Of a stretch of DNA of 64,000 bases, positions 60,602 to 60,678 are shown one piece after another. The stretch covers positions 5,406,062-5,470,061 of the forward strand of contig OX638379.1 in NCBI GenBank assembly GCA_951813605.1, written 5' to 3'. Source of the DNA: an uncultured Bryobacterales bacterium (GTDB lineage: Bacteria; Acidobacteriota; Terriglobia; Bryobacterales; UBA6623). Position numbers and translations under genes: made by a program. The notes below the pieces were generated by a model. That model did not search any database. It had not been told where the DNA came from and saw only the letters and a program-made list of their open reading frames with translations. Every line of letters begins with the position of its first letter. Positions within the stretch are counted from its first letter, which is position 1.

Positions 60602-60678
60602 GCCGACGTAGCTCAGCTGGTTAGAGCGCCTGATTGTGGATCAGGAGGTCGATGGTTCAAATCCATCCGTCGGTACCA
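60602..60678 (+). tRNA. tRNA-His (GTG)
   Basis: This is a 77-base cloverleaf with encoded CCA (60676-60678). The D-arm is GCTC/GAGC, the anticodon stem CCTGA/TCAGG with loop TTGTGGA gives anticodon GTG, and the T-arm is GATGG/CCATC with loop TTCAAAT. The acceptor has G1 opposite T72 and discriminator A73, and the base before G1 is T. The usual bacterial G-1:C73 histidine identity pair is therefore absent. It lies alone between the decarboxylase-like and RraA-like genes. Confidence 0.95.

Follow-up and report, generated by a model that had tools for sequence, protein, structure and literature searches.

In standard bacteria, tRNA-His carries a near-universal G at position -1 opposite the discriminator base C73, and a glutamine in motif 2 of histidyl-tRNA synthetase (HisRS) has been reported to contact this G-1:C73 pair (PMC3937112). 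The closest described departure from this rule is found in alphaproteobacteria, in which the motif-2 glutamine is reported to be changed to glycine (PMC3937112). There, in vivo assays on Consotaella identified G1:U72 and A73 as critical for the cognate HisRS (PMC7590224), and a review names A73, U72 and the anticodon as the identity elements of Caulobacter (PMC9976931). A single bacterial origin has been put forward for the loss of G-1 (PMC3937112), and convergence has also been suggested (PMC5370408). Early key papers excepted, published texts confine the G-1-less rule among bacteria to the alphaproteobacteria, and in the same literature we found neither the trait in any further bacterial phylum, Acidobacteriota included, nor any linkage between tRNA-His and hisS, the gene for HisRS.

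The window analyzed here, a stretch of 64,000 nucleotides of a bacterial genome, contains a single tRNA according to ARAGORN: a tRNA-His(GTG) with an encoded CCA on the plus strand (60602-60678). Its letters run ..gat, then GCCGACG TAGCTCAGCTGGTTAGAGCGCCTGATTGTGGATCAGGAGGTCGATGGTTCAAATCCATC CGTCGGT A CCA. The 5' strand of the acceptor stem, GCCGACG (60602-60608), starts with G1 at 60602; the 3' strand, CGTCGGT (60668-60674), ends in U72 (60674), which is wobble-paired with G1, and is followed by the discriminator A73 (60675) and the CCA (60676-60678). The anticodon GTG occupies 60636-60638 (ARAGORN position 35), and a T (60601) stands at position -1. The G-1:C73 pair of the standard bacterial tRNA-His is absent, and the window tRNA has exactly the bases that are critical in alphaproteobacteria, G1.U72 and A73. 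An earlier, sequence-only reading had described the gene in these terms and had taken its host for a probable acidobacterium; ARAGORN and the letters confirm the former, and close relatives deposited as Bryobacterales, Terriglobia or Acidobacteria MAGs agree with the latter. All seven acceptor pairs are kept, and the Rfam tRNA score of 74.4 bits is the fourth best among the 45 tRNAs of the genome, so that this is not a decayed gene.

The same reading had made its argument conditional on this being the only His tRNA of the cell, which it proved to be: all 45 Rfam tRNAs of the closed, single-contig genome (G000; 6,185,587 bp) could be typed, exactly one is a tRNA-His, and a second is not among them. 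A Thg1-like enzyme, which the reading had proposed to look for, was not found either, as PF04446 had no match in this genome or in 12 related or sampled genomes and did match a control archaeon. The sole hisS match above the hisS cut-off lies outside the window (G000:C1:495420-496832; L061:421-1833). It encodes a group II, eukaryote-like HisRS whose nearest solved structures are those of Nostoc (3net), Elizabethkingia (6nhi) and human HARS; the E. coli and Thermus enzymes align with only part of its length. Its motif-2 loop (WRADKPDPGRYRQF, VWRADKPDPGRYRQFTQFD) has the core DKPDPGR instead of ERPQKGR or DRPQKGR. The residues expected to contact G-1 and C73 are thus altered: relative to ERPQKGR, the arginine has become lysine and the glutamine is gone, its position being taken by aspartate and not by glycine. 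The genome displays the sequence hallmarks of the alphaproteobacterial system, namely no G-1, G1.U72 with A73, a sole tRNA-His, no Thg1 and an altered motif-2 loop. The altered HisRS recognition that had been surmised from the tRNA is probably real, judging from the sole tRNA-His, the missing Thg1 and the arginine-to-lysine change in motif 2. The genome also encodes a HisRS/HisZ-like paralogue of 482 aa with the loop YCSPHSGRTREF, which scores below the hisS cut-off (G000:C1:4296188-4297432; L079).

How widely is the altered pair shared among relatives? We examined tRNA-His in 61 related genomes, among them members of the window's family (f1) and of families f2 and f3 of the same order. A U72/A73 tRNA-His is present in 17 of the 18 f1 genomes, the window's own included; the exception, G012 (93% complete), yielded no tRNA-His match. 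Since 16 of the 17 other f1 genomes share the type, it is not a sequencing oddity. Where flanks could be read, f1 genomes have T, C or A at position -1, which is therefore not conserved. In f2 and f3, all genomes with a match have C72-C73 apart from one f3 genome, G022, and every C73 tRNA with a readable flank has G-1; in the sister family f3 this comes with G1:C72 wherever the flank was read. Given U72/A73 throughout the matched f1 genomes, a varying -1 base, and C73 with G-1 in the sister family, the loss of G-1 is a fixed trait of family f1, beside a standard sister family. Neither of the two results that would have spoken against the sequence-only reading, a second tRNA-His or relatives that all carry G-1, was obtained. 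The exceptional G022 has a tRNA-His with T-1, U1:A72 and A73 (L110:1501-1577) directly upstream of HisRS, and its HisRS (L146; loop NDKPEEGR) groups with Verrucomicrobia/Omnitrophota and relatives. A common origin of the f1 and G022 pairs is rejected (delta lnL 152.9, AU p 2e-38), which implies at least two separate acquisitions of altered pairs within the order.

Across the phylum, tRNA and HisRS types covary strictly. A profile of the altered HisRS, run on 396 acidobacterial genomes, separated positives (above 480 bits) from the next score (402 bits) and identified the altered type in 17 genomes spread over about ten families. All 17 have a U72/A73 tRNA-His, found by pattern search or by ARAGORN beside hisS, and this tRNA type was not found in the remaining genomes of the 396 sampled: pattern matches in G253, G326 and G397 have no matching T stem, and one in G408 is a tRNA-Leu. 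The C72-C73 pattern, which misses many families, matched 171 of the 396 genomes; among the 17 with altered HisRS it detected no intact C73 tRNA-His and matched once, in G089. That match does not represent a second, standard tRNA-His, being only a 3' half (contig C19; L331:11619-11671) beside a tyrosine integrase gene (L331:11838-12800); the working tRNA-His of this genome is of the U72/A73 type. This att-site remnant may be what is left of the tRNA that was replaced, or it may have arrived as cargo on an integrative element. Another acidobacterial genome, G289 (family f28, L152), has a very divergent HisRS with the loop YEKQQRGR and gave no tRNA-His by any pattern tried.

Relatives of the altered HisRS extend well beyond the Acidobacteriota. 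Among the matches listed from named genomes, they comprise Phycisphaerae/Planctomycetota (up to 59% identity), Ignavibacteria/Bacteroidetes (44-52%), Zixibacteria, Verrucomicrobiota, Troglogloeales, Hydrogenedentota, Neomarinimicrobiota, Coatesbacteria, Stahlbacteria and others, and U72/A73 tRNA-His genes are present in genomes of these groups. Phylum labels of many of these MAGs are those of record titles; one label is wrong, L183 ('Deltaproteobacteria') being identical to the acidobacterial G444. In a tally that counts some genes twice, 87 of 94 non-C73 tRNA-His genes have G1.U72 and A73, and 36 of 36 C73 genes have G-1 and G1:C72. Distinct sequences number 56 for U72/A73, 30 for C73 and five others. 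On the enzyme side, lysine precedes the motif-2 proline in 53 of 53 HisRS relatives of the U72/A73 type and in one of nine C73 group II enzymes (L298, DKP), the others having R, N, E or S there and standard enzymes R. In the window's family, KP is usually followed by Asp or His, with Glu, Ala and Gln also occurring; glutamine is retained once, in G014, together with an A73 tRNA-His. Glycine at this position is therefore not required.

In an IQ-TREE phylogeny of 73 rows, the U72/A73-type HisRS form one clade of 59 rows (support 96/94), in which G1.U72 is conserved; three rows deviate from the U72/A73 type, L209 and L223 with G73 and the archaeal L227 with C72/A73. The combination of G1.U72 with G73 (L209:6398-6475; L223:2862-2938) was seen in Bipolaricaulota and an acidobacterium. 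The window's family is nested within an acidobacterial/Phycisphaerae clade (100/100), and alphaproteobacteria fall into another subclade together with Planctomycetota, Neomarinimicrobiota and Coatesbacteria; the deeper and inner branches have modest to moderate support. In HisRS sequence, the alphaproteobacterial system forms a branch of its own within this clade. The sequence-only reading had envisaged a second lineage with altered recognition. That scope was drawn too small: one HisRS clade is shared by several lineages of acidobacteria and by over ten lineages at phylum level. The window's family is one of these, not a second invention independent of the alphaproteobacteria. One alphaproteobacterium, G591, has two hisS genes (contigs C24 and C51), both in the lower range of scores, where the alpha-type hisS genes retrieved also fell.

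The arrangement of the two genes bears on how they spread. Among 68 loci of the clade, 60 have at least 900 bp of upstream sequence (eight with too little were left out), and in 32 of these 60 hisS is preceded on the same strand by the tRNA-His gene, at a distance of 28-190 bp in 30 of the 32. This arrangement was found in none of 43 loci outside the clade (0/30 standard f3 loci, 0/13 acidobacterial loci with C73 and group II HisRS). Four alphaproteobacterial loci are linked (L213, L218, L220 and L380) and ten other alpha-type loci fetched are not; L380 belongs to a genome of 1.2 Mb and has an ATG about 5 bp past the end of tRNA-His. In Patescibacterium L202 (2783-2959), two tandem standard C73 tRNA-His genes sit directly upstream of hisS, and its HisRS is placed just outside the A73 clade, as its sister. 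Because L202 is linked despite having C73, linkage may predate the identity switch. The genes are unlinked in the window's own genome (tRNA-His at 5.4-5.5 Mb of the contig, hisS at about 0.50 Mb), in f76 and in several Bacteroidetes and Planctomycetota.

How might such a pair have come to serve in an acidobacterium? Judging from sequence comparisons, we consider it highly probable that the window encodes a functional G-1-less tRNA-His read by a group II HisRS, and that the pair belongs to a multi-phylum HisRS clade in which tRNA-His and hisS are often adjacent. We envision that RNase P cuts at the ordinary +1 site, which would leave a 7-bp acceptor stem with G1.U72 as its first pair and an A73-CCA end, and that the only HisRS of the genome charges this tRNA by reading G1.U72, A73 and the anticodon instead of G-1:C73. 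In the most likely history, the rule changed a single time, inside a tRNA-His-hisS unit. Horizontal transfer would then have brought this unit to the ancestor of the window's family, where it would have displaced the standard pair and where tRNA-His and hisS would later have become separated; co-transfer into that family is an inference. For the more specific proposition that the switch occurred in an already linked unit, and that a self-sufficient orthogonal pair then spread horizontally across many bacterial phyla, displacing the resident pair on each occasion, with alphaproteobacteria as one recipient among many, as opposed to adaptation in place or convergence, we judge the odds to be somewhat better than even.

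The main competitor is the published alphaproteobacterial model, whereby only HisRS was transferred and the tRNA-His already resident then adapted in place, separately in each recipient. The unlinked genes of the window's family, f76 and the several Bacteroidetes and Planctomycetota fit such a course, as does a partly generic tRNA body, and the GGATC anticodon arm is shared even by acidobacteria that combine C73 with group II HisRS. It accounts poorly for tRNA-His directly upstream of hisS in so many loci across phyla, some alphaproteobacteria included, and for the linked C73 sister L202, which makes linkage look older than the switch. Moreover, 52 of the 56 distinct derived tRNAs have GATC at positions 37-40, where most standard ones have GTTC. 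Similarity of the tRNA body, 0.80-0.90 to most derived tRNAs of other phyla (lower for the verrucomicrobial one) and at most 0.83 to the standard tRNAs compared, favors co-transfer only modestly. We regard transfer of HisRS alone as possible but rather unlikely. Direct transfer between alphaproteobacteria and the window's family, in either direction, might be suspected from their common G1.U72/A73 set and KPxPGR-type loop; however, among the matches listed, the HisRS of the window's family is about 40% identical to alphaproteobacterial enzymes versus about 58-59% to those of Phycisphaerae. Forcing the family together with the alphaproteobacterial (RRCH) HisRS lowers the log-likelihood by 142.6 (AU p 3e-48), which rejects the grouping on present sampling and renders such a transfer extremely improbable.

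Other readings concern the tRNA itself. The mature molecule might bear a -1 base, either a G-1 added by an unrecognized enzyme or a U-1 left by RNase P. U-1 could pair with A73, and U is the commonest -1 base (76 of 94 non-C73 genes); yet U is also the -1 base that bacterial RNase P prefers when it cuts at the ordinary +1 site, all four bases occur at -1 and three of them (T, C and A) within the window's family, the 13 genomes searched hold no Thg1 homologue, and the published alphaproteobacterial tRNAs lack any -1 base. We thus deem a -1 base improbable. That the gene is decayed or mis-assembled, with a standard tRNA-His elsewhere, is refuted: nothing was found in its favor, and the high covariance score and intact acceptor pairing contradict it, as do its being the only His tRNA of a single-contig genome and the recurrence of the type in 16 relatives.

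More than ten further groups of bacteria follow the altered rule and have a related HisRS, frequently with the tRNA gene linked to it; they are the relatives that were missing from the dispute over its alphaproteobacterial origin. Their discovery points to a possible route by which a tRNA identity rule may cross species boundaries, with tRNA and synthetase moving together. A corollary is that A73 without G-1 cannot by itself serve as an alphaproteobacterial marker, and the clade provides a large set of natural pairs that may be orthogonal to E. coli.

Compared with known systems, the pair is closest to that of the RRCH alphaproteobacteria (Caulobacter, Rhizobiales, Rhodobacteraceae and most SAR11), with which it shares the absence of an encoded G-1, G1.U72, A73, and a group II-like HisRS of the same wider clade with a KPxxGR motif-2 loop. 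It differs in its acidobacterial host, in the branch to which its HisRS belongs and in the residue after KP, reported as glycine in alphaproteobacteria (PMC3937112) but not so in the window's family. The standard pairs of E. coli, Thermus and f3 have the same anticodon and function, but combine G-1, G1:C72 and C73 with the loop ERPQKGR. Group II HisRS serving C73 tRNAs, such as those of the acidobacterial family f24, belong to the same enzyme class, to which the nearest solved structures 6nhi and 3net also belong, but have the loops DRPARGR or DRPQKGR, and the 13 acidobacterial loci of this kind are unlinked. In Trypanosoma brucei and Acanthamoeba, an atypical HisRS likewise charges a tRNA-His that has no G-1 (PMC6471195, PMC4284800); these enzymes are reported to be dissimilar to bacterial counterparts and therefore represent an independent solution. 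The identity rule itself is already known, and it is the breadth of its distribution and the linkage of its two genes that appear to be new to the record.
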